Shown: positions 3,227 to 36,245 of the stretch, piece after piece
How positions within the stretch are numbered: the first letter of the stretch is position 1
Layout of the letters: every line of letters starts with the position of its first letter
Assembly (NCBI GenBank): GCA_030168595.1
Contig: CP115556.1
Span: 1,674,001 to 1,738,000, forward strand
From: Methanomassiliicoccales archaeon LGM-DZ1
GTDB taxonomy: Archaea > Thermoplasmatota > Thermoplasmata > Methanomassiliicoccales > Methanomethylophilaceae
Length of the DNA: 64,000 nucleotides
Direction of reading: 5' to 3'
The notes under the pieces: model-generated
What the model was told of the DNA's origin: nothing
The model's database searches: none
The model's input: only the letters and a program-made list of their open reading frames with translations
Position numbers and translations under genes: made by a program

Positions 3227-3773
3227 ATTAGAACGGATCAGGCGCCTCCCGGGAGTAAGGGAAGCGTTCGTCATGACCATGGACCTGAGGCTGCGCATCG
3301 AGGCCGAGGAAGGCAGGATACGCGCGACAGGTGGCATGCTGTACGTCAACCGCGGGATGGAGGCCTGCCGCGATGCCGAGGTGCAGATTTGCGTGCTCTC
3401 GGACGGCTTCATAACCAACCCGGGGCCGTTCAGGATGGCGATGGAGGACGAGTACGGGAACGTATGCGGGCATGACGCCTGCAGGTCGAACCCGGTCTAC
3501 CTGCACGAGAACCCGATGTGGGTGGACGACGATTTCGTGATGTACCCCGATGTGATGCTGAAGAGCGAGCCGCGGATATCGATCATGCCTCAGAAGGTCG
3601 ATTTCCTGGAGGAGGACGGTTTCCGCTGCACCGCCTATCTGCCGGCGCTCACCGCGGACCATATCCTCAAGGAGGCCTCAGGCGGGGACCCCGATTCAGG
3701 TTTCGTGAGCACGGTCATCGGCCTGTTCCCGGTCACCGAAAAATACAGGCACTTCGCTATTCCCTCCTCATGA
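3210..3773 (+). CDS. Hypothetical protein, tandem paralogue A
   Basis: I do not recognise a family. The 187-residue soluble protein has no signal peptide or membrane segment. It shares a layout with the next gene: an N-terminal short helix (RRLPGVREAFV against RALPNMIKCLV), a central MEDEYGNVCG against MEDPDGNIVG, a WVDDDFVMYPDVM against WLSDDFWMSPTAM segment, and a similar C-terminal helix. The two therefore look like a tandem duplication that has diverged. The gene overlaps its partner by ATGA, which implies translational coupling. A TATA-like element about 30 bp upstream suggests a leaderless message. Confidence 0.75.
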   Translation: MDVTSILERIRRLPGVREAFVMTMDLRLRIEAEEGRIRATGGMLYVNRGMEACRDAEVQICVLSDGFITNPGPFRMAMEDEYGNVCGHDACRSNPVYLHENPMWVDDDFVMYPDVMLKSEPRISIMPQKVDFLEEDGFRCTAYLPALTADHILKEASGGDPDSGFVSTVIGLFPVTEKYRHFAIPSS

Positions 3774-21629: not shown

Positions 21630-23144
21630 ATGGGAGTTATTGTACCCGAGTACCCCGCTCAGACTCAGCTGAACGGAATCAAATTCGAGCTTTTCACCGA
21701 CGACGAGATCCGCAGGATCGACATGGCCACCAGGGATGTCCTGGAGACCTACGGCGTCCAGGTGTCCGACGAGGAAGGCCGCCAGATCTTCAAGAAGGCC
21801 GGCTGCCCCGTCGACGAGGCGACCCACATGGTCAAGATCCCCGGCCACGTCCTCGACATGGCCCTCGCCACCGTCCCCAAGAAGTTCTACTGCTACGGCA
21901 GGGACGAGAGCAGGACCTTCTCCCAGGAGTGGAAAGGCAAGGTGCACTACACCTGCTTCGGAACCGGTATCCAGGTCTGCGACTACAAGGGACACGGCAA
22001 ATACGAGACCAGGGACTCCAACGAGGAGGACCTCGCCAACATCGCGAGGCTCTGCGACTGGTGCGACGGCCTCTCCTACTTCTCCCTGCCTGTTTCCGCA
22101 AGGAACTGGGCCGGAAAGGGTGCCGAGGATGTCCACGAGCTCCTGACCTCCCTGAAGAACACCACCATGCACTTCCACCACATCGACCCCGTCGCCGGCA
22201 ACGTCGAGTTCTACCGCGACATGGTCCTCGCCTACTACCACGGCGACGAGGCCCAGGCCCGCGCGAAGCCCATCATGTCCATGCTGGTCTGCCCGACCTC
22301 CCCGCTGGAGCTGTCCTACAACGCGTCCCAGTGCATCATCAAGGGAGCCAGGTACGGCATCCCGGTGAACGTCCTGTCCATGGCCATGGCCGGAGGATCC
22401 TCCTCCGTCTTCCTGGCCGGAACCCTCGTCACCCACAACGCTGAGGTCCTGTCCGGTATCGTGCTCTCCCAGCTCGCCTGCCCCGGCGCGAAGGTCTGGT
22501 ACGGATCCTCGACCACCACCTTCGACCTCAAGAGGGGAACCGCTCCTGTCGGATCCCCCGAGCTCGGCCTGATCTCCGCGTCCGTCGCGAAGCTCGGCCA
22601 GTACTACGGAATGCCCGTCTTCACCGCCGGTATGTAGACCGACGCCAAGGTGCCCGACGGACAGGCCGGACACGAGAAGACCATCACCTCCCTCGCAGCC
22701 GCCCTCGCCGGTGTCAACATGATCTACGGCAGCGGAATGCTGGAGCTCGGAATGACCTTCTCCCTCGAGCAGATGGTCATCGACAACGATATCATCCGCA
22801 TGGAGAGGAGGTTCATGGAGGGTGTCCCCGTCACCGACGAGACCCTCGCCGTCGACGCCATCAAGGAGATCGGAGTCGGGAACGACTTCATCGCCCACCC
22901 CTCCACCATGGAGAACATCGAGCTCGCTTCCGACCCCCTGGTCTTCAACAGGCTCATGCTCGGAGACTGGAGGAACGCTGGTTACAAGGACGCCGCCGAT
23001 GCCGCCCACGACATCGTCGTCGATGTCCTGAAGAACCACGAGGTCAAGCCCATCGAGGCCGATGTGCTCGCCAAGATGGAGGAGATCGCGAAGAAGGCCG
23101 ACCAGGCATACCTGAAGAGGGCTGCCCAGGAGGAGAGCCAGTAA
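21630..23144 (+). CDS. mttB: Trimethylamine methyltransferase MttB (pyrrolysine at 336)
   Basis: Transfers a methyl group from trimethylamine to MttC. The 504-residue product reads through the in-frame TAG at 22635-22637 (Pyl336), close to position 334 of Methanosarcina MttB. Typical blocks are [15 protein letters not shown] before the amber and [14 protein letters not shown] after it, and [15 protein letters not shown] further on. A good Shine-Dalgarno (AAGGAGGAAG) precedes ATG 21630. It is 37 bp from mtbB and 73 bp from mttC. Stop is TAA. Confidence 0.97.
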
Positions 23145-23865: not shown

Positions 23866-23953
23866 TCATTTCCCGCGCCCTCCGCTTCACGGCGGGGGGT
23901 GCCAAACCCCTTAGGCTCGCGGCGCCGGCTTGAAAGCCGCGGTGTGTGGTAAT

Positions 23954-25474
23954 ATGGCAGAGAACATCAAGCCTCAGGCTAATCCGGCCGATTACAGGCC
24001 GAACGAAACGCCTGTCGATATCGAGACCCTCGTGAAGGCGGATCACAAGAAGAAGATCCGTTTCGGTCTCATCATGGGAATCCTTTGCGCGCTGTACTGG
24101 GGAGTGTGGTATGTCCCCGGGTACGCCGTATACGACCTTCCCGACCTTCTCAACAGTCTTTCAGCTAATCTCACAGAGAACCATCCCAGCCTCAGCACGG
24201 ATGCGAACACGCTCATGGTATGCGTGTTCCTCACCGGCCTCAACGCCATCGCCTGCGCTCTGGTGCTGTTCATCTGGAACGGCGCCCTGGGAAAGCTCCC
24301 CGAGTTCCACAGGACCCTTGTGGAGTTTAAGGCGGCCAGCAAGTACTTCCTCCTCGCGGGGATCTGCGGCGCCTGTGCTGTCTCGGGAACTTATATCGCT
24401 GCAACTTTCCTCAGCCCCGGTTTCGCGGCCATCGCCGGCCTGCTGTATCCTATAATCGGGACCACTATGTCCGTCCTGTACCTGAAGCAGAAGGTCTCCA
24501 AGAGGGGATACCTGGCTATCATCGTGCTGCTGGCGGGCGGTATCACTCTCTACTCCGGAACCCTCATCGCCGGGAACACCGACAGCTCCAACCCCACGCT
24601 CGGAGCGATCGGAGGTATCATGGCGGCAGTCGGATGGGGATTCGAAGGTGTCGTCGCCGGAAAGGCGCTCGATATCTGCGAGCCCGATGTCGGGCTTCAC
24701 CTCAGGTTCTGCTTCGAGGCGCTCTTCTGGATCATCGTCATGCTCATCTTCACCGGATGCGGCTACAACCTGTTCTACTCCATCGGAGATGTCTTCGGCG
24801 ACCCCGCGGACTTCGTCGTCGTGCTCATGCTGGGTCTTTCCTTTGCATGGTGCTACGTCACGTGGTACAAGTCGTTCCCGTTCCTGGGAGTGGCCAGAGG
24901 GCAGGCCGTCGGAAGCCTGTACGCCGCCTGCGCGGTCATCTTCCTGATCATCTTCTTCGGACCCGAGGACGCACTCGGATACGATGACGATTCTATGGCG
25001 CTCATCGTCGGCTCGACCATCGCCGGGCTGATCATCTGCCTCATCGGGAGCTTCCTCATCGCCACCGAAGACAGCGAAGGGCTCGTCAGCCTCAGGGCCG
25101 AGAACGAGCCTGCCGATGAGAACGGGCACGCTGCGAACACCGTCGAGCCTATGGACGACCACGGCAAGATCATCAGGAAGGCGCCGATCAAGTTCCGCCT
25201 GATGCAGATCCTCGAGAACGGGGGCCCGCAGTGGAGCTACGAGGTCGTCGACAAGCTGTGCGAAGAGTACGGCATGAAGTCCGAGCACGACAAGCACATG
25301 GTGAACTACGACCTGATCGAGATGACCTCGGCCGGATTCCTCAGGGAAGAAGGCTACGAGATCGACACCGAGGGCAAGCTGAACAAGGACCACCTCCTCG
25401 TGAAGTACGCCATCACCGATCTCGGGATCACCACCATCGACGAGCTCAAGACGAAGGTGAGACACTATGAGTAA
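23954..25474 (+). CDS. EamA/DMT-type transporter with a C-terminal soluble domain, candidate amine permease
   Basis: A 506-residue protein. The first 390 or so residues hold about ten helices in the drug/metabolite transporter pattern (IMGILCALYWGVWYV; IAGLLYPIIGTTMSVLYL; GGIMAAVGWGFEGVVAGK). The last 90 or so residues form a charged soluble domain (KFRLMQILENGGPQWSYEVVDKL, then MVNYDLIEMTSAGFLREEGY) that looks like a winged helix. Position between mttC and mtmC and the GTGGTAATATGGC start shared with the APC permease point to amine uptake. The stop codon overlaps a small membrane-peptide gene by 8 bp. Confidence 0.75.
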   Translation: MAENIKPQANPADYRPNETPVDIETLVKADHKKKIRFGLIMGILCALYWGVWYVPGYAVYDLPDLLNSLSANLTENHPSLSTDANTLMVCVFLTGLNAIACALVLFIWNGALGKLPEFHRTLVEFKAASKYFLLAGICGACAVSGTYIAATFLSPGFAAIAGLLYPIIGTTMSVLYLKQKVSKRGYLAIIVLLAGGITLYSGTLIAGNTDSSNPTLGAIGGIMAAVGWGFEGVVAGKALDICEPDVGLHLRFCFEALFWIIVMLIFTGCGYNLFYSIGDVFGDPADFVVVLMLGLSFAWCYVTWYKSFPFLGVARGQAVGSLYAACAVIFLIIFFGPEDALGYDDDSMALIVGSTIAGLIICLIGSFLIATEDSEGLVSLRAENEPADENGHAANTVEPMDDHGKIIRKAPIKFRLMQILENGGPQWSYEVVDKLCEEYGMKSEHDKHMVNYDLIEMTSAGFLREEGYEIDTEGKLNKDHLLVKYAITDLGITTIDELKTKVRHYE

Positions 25475-25601
25475 CTGGGATGCATACGCGGGCCACTTCG
25501 CCGACGGCATACCTGCCGGCGAGATCATCAGCACCGTGTTCATCATTGCCCTCTGCGCATTCGGCGTCATCATCGCGCGCTGGATGTACAAGCAGCTCTG
25601 A
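25467..25601 (+). CDS. 44-residue single-span membrane peptide
   Basis: The ATG lies inside the end of the transporter gene (ATGAGTAA, 8-bp overlap), so translation is coupled. The peptide starts MSNWDAYAGHFADG and has one hydrophobic helix (EIISTVFIIALCAFGVIIA) ending in RWMYKQL, giving an outside-in or positive-inside topology with the C-terminus in the cytoplasm. A GGGGGCC/GGCCCCC terminator follows 13 bp after the stop. It may be a small subunit of the transporter. No family is known to me. Confidence 0.7.
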   Translation: MSNWDAYAGHFADGIPAGEIISTVFIIALCAFGVIIARWMYKQL

Positions 25602-26008
25602 AAGGGCATGAACAGGGGGCCTTCCGGCCCCCTCCAAACATCCTGAAACCTTTTGCTCCTTTTTTCTATTGTATATGTACATGCCTGCAGAGCATTGCCT
25701 CCGGGGCATTCTATCATGCGCTGCGGACGGCCGCCGGTGCCGCTTGTTCGTGCCGTCCGATGTCCGGTCAGGGGCCAGCGATATCCTTTCGGACGGGCTG
25801 GGCAGGTCTCCTTTTCTTTCTATATTTAAATGTTTGTTTAAAACTGGGGCTATGGGATGGATCCTGCCCGTTCCGGCATCCGGAACGGCACATTTTTCGT
25901 TTCCAATCGAATCCATAATTTCTATGCATTTTGATTGAAATTAGATATCAATCCACTATTTTCTGAATTAGTGAATAAATGACTAATTAATCCGAAAAAT
26001 CTTGACGA
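25602..26008. other. Intergenic half of the duplicated unit
   Basis: After the hairpin terminator at 25615-25632 no gene is supported. The sequence moves from GC-rich to strongly AT-rich (near 25820-26005). Short open frames here are not convincing: none has a Shine-Dalgarno or a credible promoter. Confidence 0.5.
25615..25632 (+). terminator. Terminator of the transporter/peptide operon (copy 1)
   Basis: GGGGGCC-TTCC-GGCCCCC hairpin followed by pyrimidine-rich sequence with a run of six T about 35 bp later. The same structure occurs in the second copy at 26434-26451. Confidence 0.7.
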
Positions 26009-26020
26009 AAGTTCCGCCTG

Positions 26021-26293
26021 ATGCAGATCCTCGAGAACGGGGGCCCGCAGTGGAGCTACGAGGTCGTCGACAAGCTGTGCGAAGAGTACGGCATGAAGTC
26101 CGAGCACGACAAGCACATGGTGAACTACGACCTGATCGAGATGACCTCGGCCGGATTCCTCAGGGAAGAAGGCTACGAGATCGACACCGAGGGCAAGCTG
26201 AACAAGGACCACCTCCTCGTGAAGTACGCCATCACCGATCTCGGGATCACCACCATCGACGAGCTCAAGACGAAGGTGAGACACTATGAGTAA
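26021..26293 (+). pseudogene. Duplicated C-terminal fragment of the EamA-type transporter
   Basis: Second copy of the last 90 codons of the transporter, from MQILENGG to the stop. There is an in-frame ATG at its start, so a free soluble domain could in principle be made, but no Shine-Dalgarno or TATA box in the right place is obvious, other than weak AT-rich sequence upstream (AATTAATCC). The membrane part is absent. Confidence 0.65.
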
Positions 26294-26420
26294 CTGGGAT
26301 GCATACGCGGGCCACTTCGCCGACGGCATACCTGCCGGCGAGATCATCAGCACCGTGTTCATCATTGCCCTCTGCGCATTCGGCGTCATCATCGCGCGCT
26401 GGATGTACAAGCAGCTCTGA
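26286..26420 (+). CDS. 44-residue single-span membrane peptide, second copy
   Basis: Exact copy of the peptide gene at 25467-25601, again overlapping the end of the upstream frame. Whether it is expressed depends on the truncated upstream frame or on read-through. If expressed it would double the dose of the peptide relative to the transporter. Confidence 0.5.
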   Translation: MSNWDAYAGHFADGIPAGEIISTVFIIALCAFGVIIARWMYKQL

Positions 26421-26988
26421 AAGGGCATGAACAGGGGGCCTTCCGGCCCCCTCCAAACATCCTGAAACCTTTTGCTCCTTTTTTCTATTGTATATGTACA
26501 TGCCTGCAGAGCATTGCCTCCGGGGCATTCTATCATGCGCTGCGGACGGCCGCCGGTGCCGCTTGTTCGTGCCGTCCGATGTCCGGTCAGGGGCCAGCGA
26601 TATCCTTTCGGACGGGCTGGGCAGGTCTCCTTTTCTTTCTATATTTAAATGTTTGTTTAAAACTGGGGCTATGGGATGGATCCTGCCCGTTCCGGCATCC
26701 GGAACGGCACATTTTTCGTTTCCAATCGAATCCATAATTTCTATGCATTTTGATTGAAATTAGATATCAATCCACTATTTTCTGAATTAGTGAATAAATG
26801 ACTAATTAATCCGAAAAATCTTGACGAATGAACTTTAAAATAGAAATGTTTAAATATAATAATCTAAAAAAATTTAATTCGCCAGAAAATACTTAAATAG
26901 ATAACTTCCATCTATTGAATCAGACAAAAGAAGACCTGAAGCATGCACGGAAGTCATGCGGCAGTCTTTCGGCGTCTGGAGTGGTAAT
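26421..26988. promoter_or_regulatory. AT-rich region upstream of mtmC
   Basis: The first 407 bp are the second copy of the duplicated unit (terminator at 26434-26451). The unique part from 26828 holds the mtmC promoter: TTAAATAG at about 26893-26900, the same TATA octamer as at the APC permease. The leader has a GCATG/CATGC hairpin (26941-26959) and GTGGTAAT before ATG 26989. No gene is seen. Confidence 0.5.
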
Positions 26989-27624
26989 ATGGCAAATGAA
27001 GAGATTCTGGCGGATCTTAAGAAGTCCGTCGAGACCTGGAACTTCGCGCTCTGCAAGGAAGCTACCCAGAAAGCTATCGACGCGAAGATGCCCGTTTCCG
27101 AGATCATGGACAAGGGCCTCGGAAAGGGAATGGAGACCATCGGACAGAGGTTCAACGACGCGGAGATCTTCCTGCCACAGGTCGTCGCTGCATCCAAGAC
27201 CATGGAAATGGCCATCAAGATGCTCGAGCCCCTTATGACCGGCGGAGCTACCGCGACGAAGGGAACCGTTGTCATGGGAACCGTCGAGGGAGACATCCAT
27301 GAGATCGGGAAGAACGTCTGCTGCGCGATGCTCCGCGGAGCAGGGTACAAGGTCATCGATGTCGGACCCGACGCCGACCCGCAGACCTTCCTCGACGCTG
27401 CCGAGGAGAACGACGCCAAGATCATCGGAGGCTCTGCCCTGATGACCACCACCCTCGAGTCCCAGAGGGATATCGTCAACGCCAACAACGAGGACGGCAA
27501 GAAGTACAAGTGCATCTTCGGAGGAGCTCCCTGCTCCAAGGAGTGGTGCGATGAGATCGGCGCCGACGGATACTCCGAGACCAGCTCCGAGATCGTCGAG
27601 CTCGTCAAGAAGCTCATGGAGTGA
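26989..27624 (+). CDS. mtmC: Monomethylamine corrinoid protein MtmC
   Basis: A 211-residue corrinoid protein that accepts the methyl group from monomethylamine via MtmB. It has the usual helical cap, then GDIHEIGKN (axial ligand His104), GGSALMTTT and FGGAPCSKEW. The start MANEEIL has GTGGTAAT immediately upstream. The gene is separated from mtmB by only 5 bp. Confidence 0.94.
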   Translation: MANEEILADLKKSVETWNFALCKEATQKAIDAKMPVSEIMDKGLGKGMETIGQRFNDAEIFLPQVVAASKTMEMAIKMLEPLMTGGATATKGTVVMGTVEGDIHEIGKNVCCAMLRGAGYKVIDVGPDADPQTFLDAAEENDAKIIGGSALMTTTLESQRDIVNANNEDGKKYKCIFGGAPCSKEWCDEIGADGYSETSSEIVELVKKLME

Positions 27625-27629
27625 TTAAA

Positions 27630-29015
27630 ATGGCAGCAACCAGAGCGCTTTCTGTCTGCGACACCTACGACAGGTTCAAGAAGGGTAAGAAGGTCGACGA
27701 GTCCGAGTGGGACTACAGCATCATCCCCACCAACGCGACCGAGCTGAAGAACAAGTACAAGCTCGACTTCGGCAACACCTTCATCCCCGAGGACAATGAG
27801 GTCAAGAACGCCCTCTTCCAGGCTGGACTTGAGATGCTCGTCAACACCGGGTTCTACCTCAAGGACATGGGAAAGGTCATGCATGTGACCGAGGAGGAGG
27901 TCTGGGAGGGGATCAAGAAGACCCCGACCAAGCTCATTCTCGGTGAGGGCAGGGACATCGCCCGCTTCTACCCGAGGCACGGCAACAGCCCCGTGAAGCC
28001 CATCATCCAGGGAGGACCTACCGGATCCCCCATCTCCGAGGACGTGTTCGTGCAGGTCATGCAGTCCTACGCCCAGGAAGGCGTCGTCGACGACCTCGTC
28101 GACGGTGTCATGACGACCCTCGAGGGGCACCCCGCCAAGTCCGGAACTCCCTACGAGATCCGCGCCACCATGGCGGAGCTCCGCGCCACCAGGGAAGCGA
28201 GGGAGAGGGCCGGCCGTCCCGGACTGGGTGTCTAGGGACCCGAGACTCCGCTGACCGAGGCCGCCAGGCTCGCAGCGGACATGGTCCACGCAGGACACCG
28301 CGTCACCGACGCGCACGAGTGCTCCCAGCTGAACGAGCTCAAGATGGACATGACCGGCCTGAACATGCTGGCCGGATGGACCGTCAACGGCGACACCATC
28401 ATGATCGAGCAGATGCCGATCTTCGGCGGATACTGCGGCGGCCTCGAGGAGACCGCGATCTGCGACGTCGCCACCACCCTCGCGTCCTTCGCCCTGTTCA
28501 ACGGCAACTTCCACCTCGACGGACCTATCCACATCAGGTGGGGAACCACCACCAACAGGCAGTCCCTGCAGGTCGCTGCGCACGCCGCCGCGGCCATCGA
28601 CAACAACACCGACCTGCTGCTGGCCAACCAGTACTACCCGATGGCGGGCCCCTGCACCGAGATGTGCCTCATCGAGACCGCCGTCCAGGCGATCAACGAT
28701 ACCGGCTCCGGAAGGGAGCTCCTCTCCGGATCCGCCGCCGCCAAGGGTGTCGTCCAGGACAAGACCACCGGAATGGAGGCCCGCGCCATGGGCGAGGCCG
28801 CCCTGACCGCCGCCGGAATGAAGGTGTCCGACCTCAACGAGATCATGAACACCCTCGTCTCCGAGTACGAGCAGCACTACAACGATGCTCCCGCCGGAAA
28901 GAGGTTCCAGGAGTGCTACGACGTCAAGACCGTCAAGCCCACCGAGGAGTACCTCCAGGTCTACGACCAGGCGATGCAGCACCTCCGCGACGCCGGACTC
29001 CCCATCAAGCACTGA
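27630..29015 (+). CDS. mtmB: Monomethylamine methyltransferase MtmB (pyrrolysine at 202)
   Basis: Transfers the methyl group of monomethylamine to MtmC. The in-frame TAG at 28233-28235 encodes Pyl202, exactly the position in Methanosarcina MtmB. The context GRPGLGV-Pyl-GPETPL is diagnostic, as are QGGPTGSPISEDVF before it and MPIFGGYCGGLEET, HLDGPIHIRWG and GPCTEMCLIE after it. Product 461 residues, stop TGA. A hairpin (29034-29053) follows. A decayed copy lies downstream. Confidence 0.98.
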
Positions 29016-29033
29016 TCGGGAAGCTGCTAAACA

Positions 29034-29053
29034 CAGGGGGCTCCGGCCTCCTG
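29034..29053 (+). terminator. Hairpin after mtmB
   Basis: CAGGGGG pairs with CCTCCTG (one G-U) around CTCCGG, followed by CTATTTATTTCTC. Confidence 0.6.
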
Positions 29054-29148
29054 CTATTTATTTCTCCCGCGGGCCGCGCCAGCGGCCCGTACCTTACCAT
29101 GCCTTATCCGTAGGCATCCTTTTCCAACAGAACAGAGTTGCATATACA

Positions 29149-29575
29149 ATGGCTGCATCGAGACCTCTCGACGTGTTCGAGGCCTTCACCCGCTTCTCAG
29201 AGGGGAAGAAGACCAGGGAGGACCAGTGGACTACGTCACCGTTCCTACGAATGCGCTCCGCATGAAAGAGAAGTCCCATGTTCGGAGGGTACTGCGGCGG
29301 GATAGAGGAGACCGCCATCTGCGATGTCGCCTCGACCCTCGCGTCGTTCACCATCCTGGGCACGGACATCCATCTCGACGGCCCCGTCCATATCAGATGG
29401 CGTCGCCGCGTCGAAAGGCGTGGTCAAGGACCGCGGGACGGGCATGGAGGCCCCTGATGGGCGAGTCGGCCATCGCCTCGGCAGGCATGGACATAGAGCG
29501 CGCCAACAGGGTGATCGACAACATTGTCTCCCTCTACGAGAACAGCTACGCGCATTCGCCGTCCGGGAAGCCCTG
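29149..29575 (+). pseudogene. Decayed second mtmB
   Basis: Three blocks of MtmB remain. From ATG 29149 the first 46 or so codons match mtmB (MAASRPLDVFEAFTRF against MAATRALSVCDTYDRF), with a one-base deletion near 29229. A jump of about 216 codons removes the amber region; FGGYCGGIEETAICDVA then follows to HIRW. A second gap of about 63 codons leads to ASKGVVKDRGTGMEA, and another frameshift to MGESAIASAGMD up to SPSGK. Differences from the intact gene are many, so this is an old paralogue, not a recent copy. Confidence 0.85.
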
Positions 29576-29576
29576 T

Positions 29577-29604
29577 GGGGGACGCGGGCTCGAACAGCGG
29601 GTCT
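29577..29604 (+). pseudogene. Partial pylT-like sequence
   Basis: GGGGGACG and CAGCGGGTCT occur here with exactly the spacing they have in pylT, 120 bp upstream of it. These correspond to the acceptor 5' strand and to the end of the D arm plus the 5' half of the anticodon arm. The D stem cannot form and the 3' half is not recognisable. It could be a remnant tRNA-Pyl. The overlapping frame also resembles the MtmB C-terminus weakly (RVYDPAL), so chance cannot be fully excluded. Confidence 0.5.
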
Positions 29605-29661
29605 ATGATCCCGCCCTGCCGGGACGCATGCCCGCATACCGATGGATGCCATCTGGGAAAT

Positions 29662-29669
29662 CTTTATAC
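29662..29669 (+). promoter_or_regulatory. TATA box of pylT/pylS
   Basis: CTTTATAC is centred about 31 bp upstream of the first base of pylT. No other promoter is seen before pylS, so the tRNA and the pyl genes are probably one transcript. Confidence 0.6.
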
Positions 29670-29696
29670 TCGTTGGATTGGATTACACTCCTGCGT

Positions 29697-29767
29697 GGGG
29701 GACGATCCGGCGATCAGCGGGTCTCTAAAACCTAGCCAGCGGGGATCGACACCCCGGTCTCTCGCCA
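29697..29767 (+). tRNA. pylT: tRNA-Pyl (anticodon CUA)
   Basis: The amber suppressor tRNA for pyrrolysine. Acceptor GGGGGAC/GTCTCTC has two G-U pairs, and CCA is encoded. There is no base between acceptor and D stem. The D arm is GATC-CGGC-GATC with a 4-base loop. The anticodon loop is CTCTAAA. The anticodon stem pairs GC and GGGT with ACCT and GC, leaving one bulged A, the broken stem known from Methanomassiliicoccales. The variable loop is three bases, and the T arm is CGGGG-ATCGACA-CCCCG. All this fits the compact tRNA-Pyl used by PylSn-less PylS. Confidence 0.97.
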
Positions 29768-29797
29768 CTTTCATTTGATATTTCGGGGTAATTCCAG

Positions 29798-30625
29798 ATG
29801 GCGGAACATTTTACCGATGCGCAGATCCAGCGGCTGAGGGAGTACGGGAACGGCACTTACAAGGACATGGAGTTCGCGGACGTTTCCGCCAGGGAGAAAG
29901 CGTTCACCAAGCTCATGTCCGACGCCTCCAGGGACAACGAGTCCGCGCTGAAGGGCATGATCGCCCATCCCGCCAGGCAGGGCCTGAGCCAGCTCATGAA
30001 CGACATCGCCGACGCCCTCGTCGCCGACGGGTTCATCGAGGTCCGCACCCCTATCATCATCTCCAAGGACGCGCTCGCCAAGATGACGATCACCCCTGAC
30101 AAGCCCCTGTTCAAGCAGGTTTTCTGGATAGATGACAAGAGGGCCCTCAGGCCCATGCTCGCTCCCAGCCTGTACACCGTCATGAGGTCCCTCCGCGACC
30201 ATACGGACGGGCCTGTCAAGATCTTCGAGATGGGATCTTGCTTCAGGAAGGAGTCCCACAGCGGCATGCACCTGGAGGAGTTCACGATGCTGAACCTCGT
30301 CGACATGGGCCCGGCAGGCGACGCGACGGAGTCCCTCAAGAAGTACATAGCGATCGTCATGAAGGCCGCCGGCCTTCCCGACTACCAGCTCGTCCACGAG
30401 GAGTCCGACGTCTACAAGGAGACCATCGATGTCGAGATCGGCGGCCAGGAGGTCTGCTCGGCCGCCGTCGGGCCGCATTACCTCGATGCCGCCCACGATG
30501 TCCATGAGCCGTGGGCGGGTGCCGGCTTCGGCCTCGAGCGCCTGCTCACCATAAGGCAGGGGTACAGCACCGTCATGAAGGGCGGGGCCAGCACGACCTA
30601 CCTGAACGGCGCCAAGATGGACTGA
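29798..30625 (+). CDS. pylS: Pyrrolysyl-tRNA synthetase (no N-terminal domain)
   Basis: Class II synthetase that attaches pyrrolysine to tRNA-Pyl. The 275-residue protein has only the catalytic domain, as in Methanomassiliicoccales; no separate pylSn is seen. Motif 2 is FEMGSCFRKES; motif 3 is GAGFGLERLLTI. Amino-acid pocket residues of the class are present in APSLYTVM (Tyr126) and TMLNLVDM (Asn166), and the Trp in HEPWAGAGFG. It starts 30 bp after pylT. Confidence 0.98.
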   Translation: MAEHFTDAQIQRLREYGNGTYKDMEFADVSAREKAFTKLMSDASRDNESALKGMIAHPARQGLSQLMNDIADALVADGFIEVRTPIIISKDALAKMTITPDKPLFKQVFWIDDKRALRPMLAPSLYTVMRSLRDHTDGPVKIFEMGSCFRKESHSGMHLEEFTMLNLVDMGPAGDATESLKKYIAIVMKAAGLPDYQLVHEESDVYKETIDVEIGGQEVCSAAVGPHYLDAAHDVHEPWAGAGFGLERLLTIRQGYSTVMKGGASTTYLNGAKMD

Positions 30626-30711
30626 CCGAACATGTGCGCAATCCCGTTCATCTGAGATGCGGTTCATACGGGTGCCGAGGCACAAGGCCATGGATTCCAG
30701 GGGGCAGTAGA

Positions 30712-31872
30712 CTGAAACTAGGTATTATCGGAGGCGCGCTTCAGGGCATCGAGGCGGCCTATCTCGCGCAGAAGGCCGGATATGAGACTTTGGTCCTGGA
30801 CAGGCGGGAGGATGCTCCCGCCCGTTCCATCGCGGACGGCTCGGTCACGGTAGATGTGGCCAAGGACCCGGAGAAGGCCGCGAAGGCGCTCGGGGACTGC
30901 GATGCCGTCATACCGGCGCTCGAGGAGATGGACGCCCTCGAGAGCCTTGAGAAGATAAAGAAAGGATTCTCGGGCCCGTACCTTTTCGATATGGACGCCT
31001 ACCGGATCTCGTCCTCCAAGCTGAGGTCCAATGAGATCATGGGGAAGTTCGGGGTCCCCATGCCCAAACCGTGGCCGGAATGCGGCTACCCCGTGATCGT
31101 CAAGCCGTCGTCCCAGAGCGGGTCCGTCGGCGTCTCCGAGGTCGAGAACGACGAGCAGATGAAGGCGGCGCTGGAGAAGGTGTCCGCGCTGCACGACGAG
31201 CCGGTCATCCAGGAGTTCGTCCACGGGAAGAGCCTGTCCGTCGAGGCCATAGGGGACGGGGAGAAGGCCAGGGCCTACATCACCACCCAGGTGGTCCTCG
31301 ACAGCGGCTACGACTGCAAGCAGGTCATCTGCGAGCCGGGGATCCTCGGCCCGGAGGCCGACAAACGGTTCGGGGAATGCATCAGGATGACCGCCGAGGA
31401 CATGCATCTCTGCGGCCTGATGGACATGGAGGCCATCGGCGGCGATGCGGGGTTCAAGGTGCTCGAGATCGATGCGAGGATACCCAGCCAGACCCCGGCA
31501 TGCATACTGGCCGGGACCGGCATCAACCTCCTGAAGGAGCTCTACCTGGCCCTTTCCGGCAAGGGCTCCGACCCGGTGAGGAGACCCGGAGCATCCTCGT
31601 ACGAGCATTTCTACATCGACGGGGCGCGCATGTACACCACCGGGGAGAAGGCGTTCTCCCACGTGGACCATCCGCGCATCGAGAAGGGGCTGTTCGGCTC
31701 CGACGAGATGATCACCGATTACGCCCCCGGGAAGTCCCGCTGGCACGCAACCATGATCACGTCCGGGAAGGACAGGGAGGACGTCTTCTGGAAGAGGAAG
31801 GATGCCATCGCCCGCATCATGGACGAGTGCGGCATCGAGGAGTTCATCGACGGCTCCCCGGAGGTGGTCTGA
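30712..31872 (+). CDS. pylC: PylC, 3-methylornithine:lysine ligase
   Basis: ATP-grasp ligase that joins 3-methylornithine to lysine. Family features: KLGIIGGALQGIEAAYLA at the start, YPVIVKPSSQSGSVGV, MDMEAIGGD and VLEIDARIPSQTP. The family N-terminus begins right at KLGIIGG, yet the codon before it is CTG (30712-30714), not ATG. The only in-frame alternative is GTG 30634, which would add 26 unlike residues. CTG overlaps a TGA (CTGA) in another frame, as if coupled to a lost gene. pylB is missing upstream. It overlaps pylD by one base (TGATG). Confidence 0.93.
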   Translation: MKLGIIGGALQGIEAAYLAQKAGYETLVLDRREDAPARSIADGSVTVDVAKDPEKAAKALGDCDAVIPALEEMDALESLEKIKKGFSGPYLFDMDAYRISSSKLRSNEIMGKFGVPMPKPWPECGYPVIVKPSSQSGSVGVSEVENDEQMKAALEKVSALHDEPVIQEFVHGKSLSVEAIGDGEKARAYITTQVVLDSGYDCKQVICEPGILGPEADKRFGECIRMTAEDMHLCGLMDMEAIGGDAGFKVLEIDARIPSQTPACILAGTGINLLKELYLALSGKGSDPVRRPGASSYEHFYIDGARMYTTGEKAFSHVDHPRIEKGLFGSDEMITDYAPGKSRWHATMITSGKDREDVFWKRKDAIARIMDECGIEEFIDGSPEVV

Positions 31873-32702
31873 TGACCAGGCTGACCCCGAAGATGATCTC
31901 CGGCCTGTCCGGAGAGCTGAGCGACATCGACAAGATGCTGATCCGCGACACCGGGATGGACCTCAGGACGCTGGGGTTCAGGGCGGTCGGCGTGGACCCC
32001 TCGAAGGTCGACGTCTCCGAATACCGGGCGGCGGCGGTGCCCATCACCTCCGGGCTCGGCATCATCAGCAAGTTCTCCCGGAGCGTCGCCGACATCGTCT
32101 CCGCCATGGGCATCGAGTGCACCGTCACGGAGCACACCGACGTCTGGGGCTTCGGCGATGCCCTCGACCTCGGCGCGGACATCATCCTGATGGCCGATGA
32201 CGAGCAATACATGGCATACAGCGTCGCCGCCGGGAAGTACGCCAACAACTCGTACTGCACGGCGGCCGGGTACGTGGAGGCACTCTGCGGCGCCGCGGGA
32301 GGCCTGAAAGGAAAAGATGTGCTGGTCCGCGGGGCCGGAAGGGTCGGAGGCAACATGGTGGCCATGCTCAGGAAGCTGGGCGCCAGGGTCACCGTGGCCG
32401 ACATCCTCCCCGACCGGGCGTCCGCGGTGGCGTACGCCAATCCGGGCACCATAGTGGCCACGGACATCGACGCATCGACGAGGAAGGCCGACCTCATACT
32501 CAATGCGTCCCCCACGCCCATACCGGGGGACCAGATCAAGGAGGGTGCCATAGTCTCGACGCCGGGCATCCCCCACGTTTACGACGAGGAGACGCTCGCC
32601 AAAGCGGAGTTCATCCACGACCCGCTGGCGATCGGCACCGCGCCGATGGTGGCCCAGGCCATCTCTTTCTCGCTGGGCAAGGACTGTTTCCTGCAGGAGT
32701 GA
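31872..32702 (+). CDS. pylD: PylD, pyrrolysine-forming dehydrogenase
   Basis: NAD-dependent enzyme that oxidises the PylC product so that it cyclises to pyrrolysine. The 276-residue protein ends in a Rossmann domain (VLVRGAGRVGGNMVAMLRKLG). The N-terminal part holds DTGMDLRTLG and PITSGLGIISKFS, both typical of PylD. Its ATG overlaps the pylC stop. ramA follows after 6 bp. Confidence 0.96.
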   Translation: MTRLTPKMISGLSGELSDIDKMLIRDTGMDLRTLGFRAVGVDPSKVDVSEYRAAAVPITSGLGIISKFSRSVADIVSAMGIECTVTEHTDVWGFGDALDLGADIILMADDEQYMAYSVAAGKYANNSYCTAAGYVEALCGAAGGLKGKDVLVRGAGRVGGNMVAMLRKLGARVTVADILPDRASAVAYANPGTIVATDIDASTRKADLILNASPTPIPGDQIKEGAIVSTPGIPHVYDEETLAKAEFIHDPLAIGTAPMVAQAISFSLGKDCFLQE

Positions 32703-32708
32703 ATCGAT

Positions 32709-34340
32709 TTGACAGAATACGGAATCGCATTGGATATAGGAACGAGCGGCCTGCGCGCGCAGGCCATCGACCTCGGGACCGGGGAGACCGTGGGGACCGC
32801 CATCACGCAGAGGCACCCCATCCCCGGGATGAACGTCATCGACCACGTCAACTTCGCCATCAAATCGGGCGAGGATGTGGCCAACCGCCTGCTGGTGGAC
32901 TGCGCGAACCAGCTCTTCGCGTCCCTGGGCATCGACCTGTCCAAGGTGAAGAGGATAGGCGTCTGCGGGAACACCTTCCAGATGTCCCTGTTCCAGAACA
33001 TCGAGATCAGGGACCTGGCCTACGCCGGGCAGAACATGCTCAAGGACCTCGGCGTCGTGCCCCCGAAGAGGGACGGCGCGGTCATCAATGCCAGGAGCAT
33101 GGGCATCAAGGGCGTCGCCGAGGACACCGTCGTCATCATACCGCCGGCGGTCAGGCACGAGATCGGGGCGGATGCCATCGCCATGCTGCTGATCACCGGC
33201 GTCGCCGACGCCAAGGAGCCCACCCTGGTCGTGGACTACGGGACCAACGCCGAGATGGCGCTCATCTGCGGCGACGGCAGGATCATCACCGGGTCCGCGG
33301 CCGCCGGCCCCGCCATGGAGGGCCAGGAGATCGAGCGCGGGATGCTCGCCGCCCCCGGCGCCATCTCCGACGTGGACATCGTTGAGGACGGGTGGAAGTG
33401 CACCGTCCTCGACAGCTCCATGATCGACAGGGAAGGGGACACCGTAGACCCGATGGACGGGCGCACCGTGAGGAAGGGCGAGGAGGAGGCCATCGGCATC
33501 ACCGGGACCGGCACCGTCGCCGCCCTCTACGACGGCATCAAATCCGGGATCATCCCCACATGCCCCAACATCAACACCCCCGACGGGAAGCTCCACCTGA
33601 TGAACGGCATCAACATCACATCGCACGATGTCGATGAGGCCGGGAAGGCCATCGGCGCCATGCGCGCAGGGTTCCTGACCCTCCTGCACGAGGCCGGCAT
33701 GTGGACCGGCGACGTCAAGACCGCGTACATGTCGGGCGCCTCCGGCCTCTATGTCGATGCGGTCAAGGCCCTCGGGCTCGGCATGGTCGTCCCGGGCGCG
33801 ACCCATCTGATCCAGTTCGGCAACACCTCCATCGAGATGGCCCGCAGGATCGCCATGGGGACCATCGACATGGAGTTCCTGAAGCAGTTCGCCCAGAAGC
33901 TCAAGGCCACCCACTGCATGTTCGCGACCTCGGAGACCTTCAAGCAGATCTACTCCATCGAGTACTCCGTCTGGTGCACCGGCATGCCGATGTCCATGTA
34001 CGACGAGATGCTCGGGATTTACAACCTGCCTCCCCTGGGCAAGCCCTCCGAGAACGTATCGGTCGAGAGGAAATGCATGACCGATCTCCCGGACACCGAC
34101 AAGTGCCCGGTGAAGGTCATCGAGTCCGGTACCTTCCTGACCGCCCGCATCGACGGCTGCATCTACTGCAGGAAGTGCATGAAGGAATGCCCCGAGAAGG
34201 CCCTCACCATCGTGAAGGGCCCCTCCGGGTGCAGCTTCCGCGTGGACTCCGCCCGCTGCGGAGGCACGGCGTGCCGCCGCTGCGAGCGCGCCTGCCCTCA
34301 GAAGGTCCTGCACCTCGACGGCGGCAAGCCGACGGCCTGA
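32709..34340 (+). CDS. ramA: RamA, corrinoid protein reductive activase
   Basis: ATP-dependent activase that reduces inactive Co(II) corrinoid of the methylamine proteins to Co(I). The 543-residue protein has an ASKHA-like ATPase body (LDIGTSGLRAQ; VVDYGTNAEMAL; ITGTGTVAALYDG) and a C-terminal ferredoxin-like domain with two [4Fe-4S] motifs (CIYCRKCMKECP and CGGTACRRCERACP). The start is TTG 32709 with CAGGAG upstream; no ATG is near. It ends the pylTSCD-ramA transcript; a hairpin at 34356-34375 follows. Confidence 0.96.
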   Translation: MTEYGIALDIGTSGLRAQAIDLGTGETVGTAITQRHPIPGMNVIDHVNFAIKSGEDVANRLLVDCANQLFASLGIDLSKVKRIGVCGNTFQMSLFQNIEIRDLAYAGQNMLKDLGVVPPKRDGAVINARSMGIKGVAEDTVVIIPPAVRHEIGADAIAMLLITGVADAKEPTLVVDYGTNAEMALICGDGRIITGSAAAGPAMEGQEIERGMLAAPGAISDVDIVEDGWKCTVLDSSMIDREGDTVDPMDGRTVRKGEEEAIGITGTGTVAALYDGIKSGIIPTCPNINTPDGKLHLMNGINITSHDVDEAGKAIGAMRAGFLTLLHEAGMWTGDVKTAYMSGASGLYVDAVKALGLGMVVPGATHLIQFGNTSIEMARRIAMGTIDMEFLKQFAQKLKATHCMFATSETFKQIYSIEYSVWCTGMPMSMYDEMLGIYNLPPLGKPSENVSVERKCMTDLPDTDKCPVKVIESGTFLTARIDGCIYCRKCMKECPEKALTIVKGPSGCSFRVDSARCGGTACRRCERACPQKVLHLDGGKPTA

Positions 34341-34355
34341 ACTGCATGGTCCGCA

Positions 34356-34375
34356 GGGACGGCCTATGCCGTCCC
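34356..34375 (+). terminator. Hairpin after ramA
   Basis: GGGACGGC-CTAT-GCCGTCCC, a perfect 8-bp stem, lies 15 bp after the ramA stop. Confidence 0.6.
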
Positions 34376-34428
34376 CCGACAAAGAATATAAATGGGTTTT
34401 CGATAAACCTAAACAGGAACTAACTTAG

Positions 34429-34444
34429 CCCGGGGCTTCCCGGG
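34429..34444 (+). promoter_or_regulatory. Hairpin and T-run in the leader of the DEAD-box gene
   Basis: CCCGGG-GCTT-CCCGGG is followed directly by TTTCTTTATTTTC. It lies after a TATA-like AATATAAAT (34385-34393) and before ATG 34482, so it may sit in the helicase leader as an attenuator. Alternatively it is a second ramA terminator with the helicase promoter in the T-rich run. Confidence 0.45.
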
Positions 34445-34481
34445 TTTCTTTATTTTCTATCTTCCAGCGAAAGTGAATGAA

Positions 34482-36245
<1,764 letters not shown>

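Follow-up and report, generated by a model that had tools for sequence, protein, structure and literature searches.

The Methanomassiliicoccales archaeon LGM-DZ1 has, with a probability of about 94%, a complete but split pyrrolysine system, composed of a pylT-S-C-D-ramA cluster and a lone intact pylB whose copy in the cluster is gone. The cluster lies in the stretch of 64,000 nucleotides analysed here (the window), to which coordinates refer unless a contig or locus is named. The genome (G000) is assembled as one contig of 1,768,094 bases and is 99.68% complete.

All genes of the cluster are read from the + strand. pylS (29798..30625; TIGR02367, 268.1 bits, cut-off 178.15) encodes a PylRS without the N-terminal domain and stops with the TGA at 30623-30625. 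pylC (30712..31872; TIGR03909, 331.3 bits, cut-off 248.3) starts with a CTG at 30712-30714, as assigned by alignment with relatives. The initial annotation had reported that pylB is absent between the two genes, and the coordinates confirm that only an 86 bp spacer (30626..30711, +) is present at the site occupied by pylB in most relatives. The spacer contains a Shine-Dalgarno-like GGGGG (30700..30704, +) seven bases 5′ of the CTG, and the same position reads GGAGG in G034, G037 and G038. The start of pylD (31872..32702; TIGR03911, 188.3 bits, cut-off 150.05) overlaps the pylC stop, and ramA, coding for the methylamine methyltransferase corrinoid activase, follows at 32709..34340 (TIGR04270, 667.1 bits, cut-off 500). 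Upstream of pylS, a candidate pylT (tRNA-Pyl, anticodon CTA) was recognized by eye at 29697..29767 (+) from its position, CTA loop and acceptor pairing; neither ARAGORN (29000-30000) nor Rfam at the gathering cut-off (25000-36000) called it. The same junction, pylS directly followed by pylC, occurs in all six genomes of the subclade comprising G000, G034, G035, G037, G038 and G043. The two genes are separated by 86 bp in G000 and G035, 71 bp in G034, 65 bp in G037 and 73 bp in G038. In G043 (L068 ~3292-3343), CGA replaces the pylS stop and the pylS frame continues for about 20 codons, overlapping the pylC start. The start codon of pylC is apparently the unusual CTG in four of these genomes (G000, G034, G035 and G038) and ATG in G037.

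The initial annotation had concluded that pylB must lie elsewhere, unless the precursor or pyrrolysine is imported, and had proposed a genome-wide search for a radical-SAM PylB. This family search found a single PylB (methylornithine synthase) over the cut-off (663176-664183 of the contig; TIGR03910, 420.8 bits against 348.2), encoded by an ORF on the − strand (G000:C1:663137-664192; L063 9138-10193; 421 bits). It lies about 0.72 Mb from the pyl cluster if the contig is circular and 1.04 Mb the other way. The protein is full length, covering positions 6-346 of the 347 of the model, and has no internal stop. The next-best NCBIfam family, HydE, reached 129.9 bits and thus stayed below its cut-off of 254.6. 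Proteins of the radical-SAM type carry the cluster motif CxxxCxxC, with which the CHNNCTFC of the remote PylB agrees, and the Pfam Radical_SAM model matched with 76 bits (cut-off 29.5). Among solved structures the best match was PylB 3T7V (294.8 bits, query residues 6-337). A second match of the PylB model at 474427-474927 was rejected as another PylB; it scored 70 bits, adjoins what we take to be a thiG-like frame and looks like what is presumably a ThiH.

The layout as such is already known. In Ca. Methanomethylophilus alvus, of which the window genome is a close relative, the pylTSCD cluster and pylB are about 0.7 Mb apart (PMC3941956), and pylTSCD with pylB apart is also described in the available part of PMC9499178. 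G000 fits this type, with pylS followed directly by pylC and pylD and one intact pylB elsewhere. Strain Mx1201 of Ca. M. alvus is nevertheless a different genome, and the likeness concerns the published layout of a pylTSCD cluster with a single distant pylB. In contrast, the usual archaeal order pylTSBCD, found for instance in Methanosarcina and in ISO4-H5 (PMC3941956; PMC5011839 as far as available), comprises the same genes in the same order apart from pylB, which G000 lacks between pylS and pylC. Split but complete pyl gene sets are also known from Methanohalobium evestigatum and Sifarchaeia, where, according to the available part of PMC9499178, pylTS stands apart from pylBCD, whereas in G000 pylB alone stands apart. 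The statement in the accessible text of PMC5011839 that the organisation of the pyl operon is conserved across the order is at odds with the M. alvus layout in PMC3941956.

What we add to this published layout is a common new site of pylB, which G000 shares with G034, G035 and G043, and, except for the SMR genes, with G037, and at which eight genus mates lack the gene, their pylB being in the cluster. In the first four genomes, pylB is embedded between an ORF of about 97 amino acids and a pair of SMR transporter genes, after which come an MtaA-like, an isocitrate-dehydrogenase-like and a deoxyhypusine-synthase-like gene; the compared stretch of G035 stops inside the isocitrate-dehydrogenase-like gene. 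G037 has pylB with the same neighbours but without the SMR genes. The small ORF had no Pfam match, and the MtaA-like protein remained under the cut-offs of the NCBIfam families that it matched. The corresponding empty site was found in six of these eight genus mates (G036, G039, G042, G044, G045 and G046), in which the ORF and the first SMR gene adjoin, 23-37 bases apart when measured between match edges, without pylB. In the other two, G040 and G041, the SMR genes and pylB are both missing from this location. Since most of the order has pylB in the cluster, it is the subclade that gained the remote site. The subclade is held together by the PylB tree (five rows, 100/99) as well as by the PylS-PylC tree (six rows, 100). 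In its sixth member, G038, no pylB was found, and the two genes marking the site also gave no match in the assembly. The available parts of the pyl literature gave us no mention of the orf-SMR site or of pylB next to argS, neither term having been searched for.

Across the order, 147 genomes were searched, 95 of which have a PylC over the cut-off. pylB is adjacent to pylC in 78 of these 95, not adjacent in 12 (G000, G034, G035, G037, G043, G051, G074, G095, G096, G099, G138 and G141) and was not found in five (G038, G048, G050, G098 and G102). The group of 12 is mixed. In G138, G141 and G051 the gene standing apart is pylC rather than pylB, and the pylB of G051 is present as partial pieces only. 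G138 and G141 have a pylS-pylB-pylD-ramA cluster (L097, L096; L098), with pylC about 9 kb off in G141 and, in G138, on a different contig next to a second pylD. In G095 and G099, pylB is located directly before argS, and in G096 two ORFs lie between them; in a check of three genomes of g9, another genus, that have pylB in the cluster (G073, G075 and G077), no pylB was found by argS. Among the genomes in which pylB was not found, G098 and G102 are probably not true losses. The argS match of G098 stops 316 bases short of a contig end and G102 gave no argS match. An assembly gap would be the simpler explanation for both. The absences in G038 and G098 may likewise be assembly gaps. A second search of G048 and G050 with another PylB gave weak matches only, and pylC is near a contig start in both. 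A pylB fragment adjoining pylC in G055 was considered as a remnant and rejected: because both of its pieces finish at contig ends, they represent one cut pylB.

Was the cluster pylB simply moved, or was it replaced? The remote pylB might stem from a second PylB lineage, whose takeover preceded the loss of the cluster copy, as could also have happened in part of g9; we consider this conceivable, at somewhat less than even odds. A first FastTree run comprised 51 PylB, 53 PylS, 53 PylC and 25 PylD rows. It was followed by a careful PylB tree of 91 rows, one row of 86 amino acids having been dropped from 92, and by a quick PylS-PylC tree, in which 86 genomes were retained from 94 PylC and 90 PylS rows and pylD was excluded because its translations in the larger set were truncated. 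In the PylB tree, the PylB of the subclade joins the off-cluster PylB of G095, G096 and G099 and an extra copy of G097 (93/84), and this group adjoins the in-cluster PylB of g9 (80/90). The in-cluster PylB of the subclade's own genus sits apart, grouped with g6 (100/98). The quick PylS-PylC tree instead places the subclade with the in-cluster genomes of g1, g6 and g8 (SH-aLRT 98), and G095, G096, G099 and G097 inside g9 (100). G097 holds an in-cluster pylB plus another elsewhere (L146 5930-7000 and L147 1905-2909), both full length and from different parts of the PylB tree, which fits a copy first and a loss later, although the assembly is fragmentary, 88% complete and with 3% contamination.

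Native descent of the remote pylB was, however, not rejected by the AU test, neither when the subclade was joined with its genus mates and g6 (p 0.20) nor with g8 added (p 0.22), and the same is true for all PylB of g9 together (p 0.41). The free PylB tree leans towards replacement, native descent was rejected in none of the three AU tests, and some branches of the tree are long. G074, the fourth g9 genome in which pylB and pylC are separated, has an ordinary g9 PylB, showing that simple moving also happens. Moreover, the sites differ. The ORF of about 97 amino acids, the SMR, MtaA-like and deoxyhypusine synthase genes gave no match in the five g9 loci compared, and the position of pylB next to argS in G095 and G099 is unlike that in the subclade. 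If a second lineage was involved, its landing sites outside the cluster were the SMR/MtaA-like locus in one genus and the vicinity of argS in part of the other. The wider proposal, that a second PylB lineage entered at least two Methanomassiliicoccales genera outside the cluster and ousted the pylB of the cluster, G097 being a case that still carries both copies, is put forward still more tentatively.

The 86 bp spacer raises the separate question of a pylB remnant. The initial annotation had pointed to a frame running from the TGA at 30653-30655 to the TGA at 30713-30715, whose 19 codons (DAVHTGAEAQGHGFQGAVD) end in a stop that overlaps the pylC start as CTGA. The frame exists as described, but a random run of 19 codons stays free of stops about 40% of the time ((61/64)^19), so that its length is no more than expected by chance. 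Between G000 and G035, which belong to the same species, 76 of the 86 gap bases agree and 10 differ, and five of the six differing codons of the frame alter the amino acid (counted by hand), a pattern not expected of a retained coding sequence. The gap was further compared with eight in-cluster and four relocated pylB genes of the genus, each extended by 60 bases of downstream sequence, by scoring the best local alignment against 200 shuffles. The G000 gap aligned no better than its shuffles (p 0.82 with the in-cluster and p 0.30 with the relocated genes), so the proposal that the gap is the end of a deleted pylB found no support here. For the G035 gap, too, the best local alignments to pylB were at shuffle level. 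G035 combines the same 86 bp gap with a distant intact pylB, a combination that the initial annotation had itself named as a refutation of its reading. Altogether, 12 comparisons were made (six gaps with two sets of pylB), the G043 stretch among them being no true spacer since the pylS frame continues through it. One gave p 0.01 and the remainder p 0.095 to 0.94. The exception, the G034 gap with in-cluster pylB, maps to pylB positions 343-363 and thus inside the gene rather than at its end.

There is nevertheless some resemblance at the very end of the gap. The alignment with pylB ends of relatives, which the initial annotation had suggested, confined it to the last 12-16 bases, where G046 reads GGAGGCAGTGTATTGA and the gap GGGGGCAGTAGACTGA. 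In intact genus mates the pylB end contains the pylC Shine-Dalgarno sequence and a stop/start overlap (G046, CCGGAGGCAGTGTATTGA; also G041 and G042), and the gap ends similarly in G037 (GGAGGCAGTAGGATGA). A spacer beginning with CAGT is uncommon: among 69 GGRGG-N7-NTG sites from 14 loci, with the pylC sites themselves counted in, it occurs three times. Frames stopping on the pylC start also occur in G034 (EGVD*), G037 (EAVG*) and G038 (EGVD*). On these grounds the 19 codons could be a degenerate C-terminal remnant of a deleted pylB, retained as carrier of the pylC ribosome-binding site with its stop/start overlap. We regard this as unlikely, as the similarity to pylB is limited to those 12-16 bases, the frames of the relatives are mutually unlike upstream of the last six or so codons and the remote pylB is of full length and thus lacks no tail. 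Conservation among relatives in and around the gap is confined to the ribosome-binding site and the start of pylC. Because the resembling bases are just these, the last bases of the gap may be either a stub of a few codons or just a ribosome-binding site, the two being indistinguishable.

Two further alternatives have a negligible probability: an assembly error, which the initial annotation had named as another source of the gap and for which no evidence was found, does not account for pylS directly before pylC in all six genomes of the subclade and for pylB at a common other site in five of them, and import of 3-methylornithine or pyrrolysine into a cell truly without PylB, in favour of which only the absence of pylB from the cluster can be cited, is not needed with an intact PylB gene over the cut-off on the same contig.

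The organism very likely uses pyrrolysine, since two methyltransferase-like genes of the window retain an in-frame TAG. The first, mttB-like (21630..23144, +; TAG at 22635-22637), resembles by eye a TAG-bearing protein of G038 that matches TIGR02369. The second, which we take to be mtmB-like, spans 27630..29015 (+; TAG at 28233-28235). Both are likely users of pyrrolysine. Between the mtmB-like gene and pylT, at 29100-29640, broken and frame-shifted mtmB-like pieces were seen by eye, as if left by a decayed duplicate. A tandem repeat with an offset of 819 bases and identical ORF translations covers about 25200-25938 and 26020-26757 and includes the end of a transporter-like gene (23930-25474). 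The pylC of G035 (L065 2995-4152) has an in-frame TAG where the window pylC has a glutamate; this may reflect a sequencing error or translation of the codon as pyrrolysine, here in a pyrrolysine-making enzyme of a Pyl-using archaeon. An MttB-like protein of G098 (L200; G098:C6:92529-93956), which exceeds the Pyl-MttB cut-off, lacks an in-frame TAG and has MGTASDSK where G038 has AGM-TAG-TDAK.

For the split system that we favour, the following course of events is probable. In an ancestor of the subclade, pylB would have been placed at the remote site between the ORF of about 97 amino acids and the SMR transporter gene, beside the gene of an MtaA-like methyltransferase. This remote copy probably arose before the copy between pylS and pylC was lost, leaving the 86 bp as a spacer with the pylC ribosome-binding site. 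The remote PylB is presumably expressed and active. From lysine it would make the 3-methylornithine that PylC and PylD would convert to pyrrolysine.

In summary, the intact remote pylB closes what had seemed to be a gap in the biosynthesis of pyrrolysine. As pylB is not adjacent to pylC in 12 of 95 PylC-bearing genomes, a cluster without pylB should not be equated with absence of the pathway. If a second PylB lineage did displace the cluster copy, this would represent the swapping of a single gene inside a genetic-code-expansion cassette.
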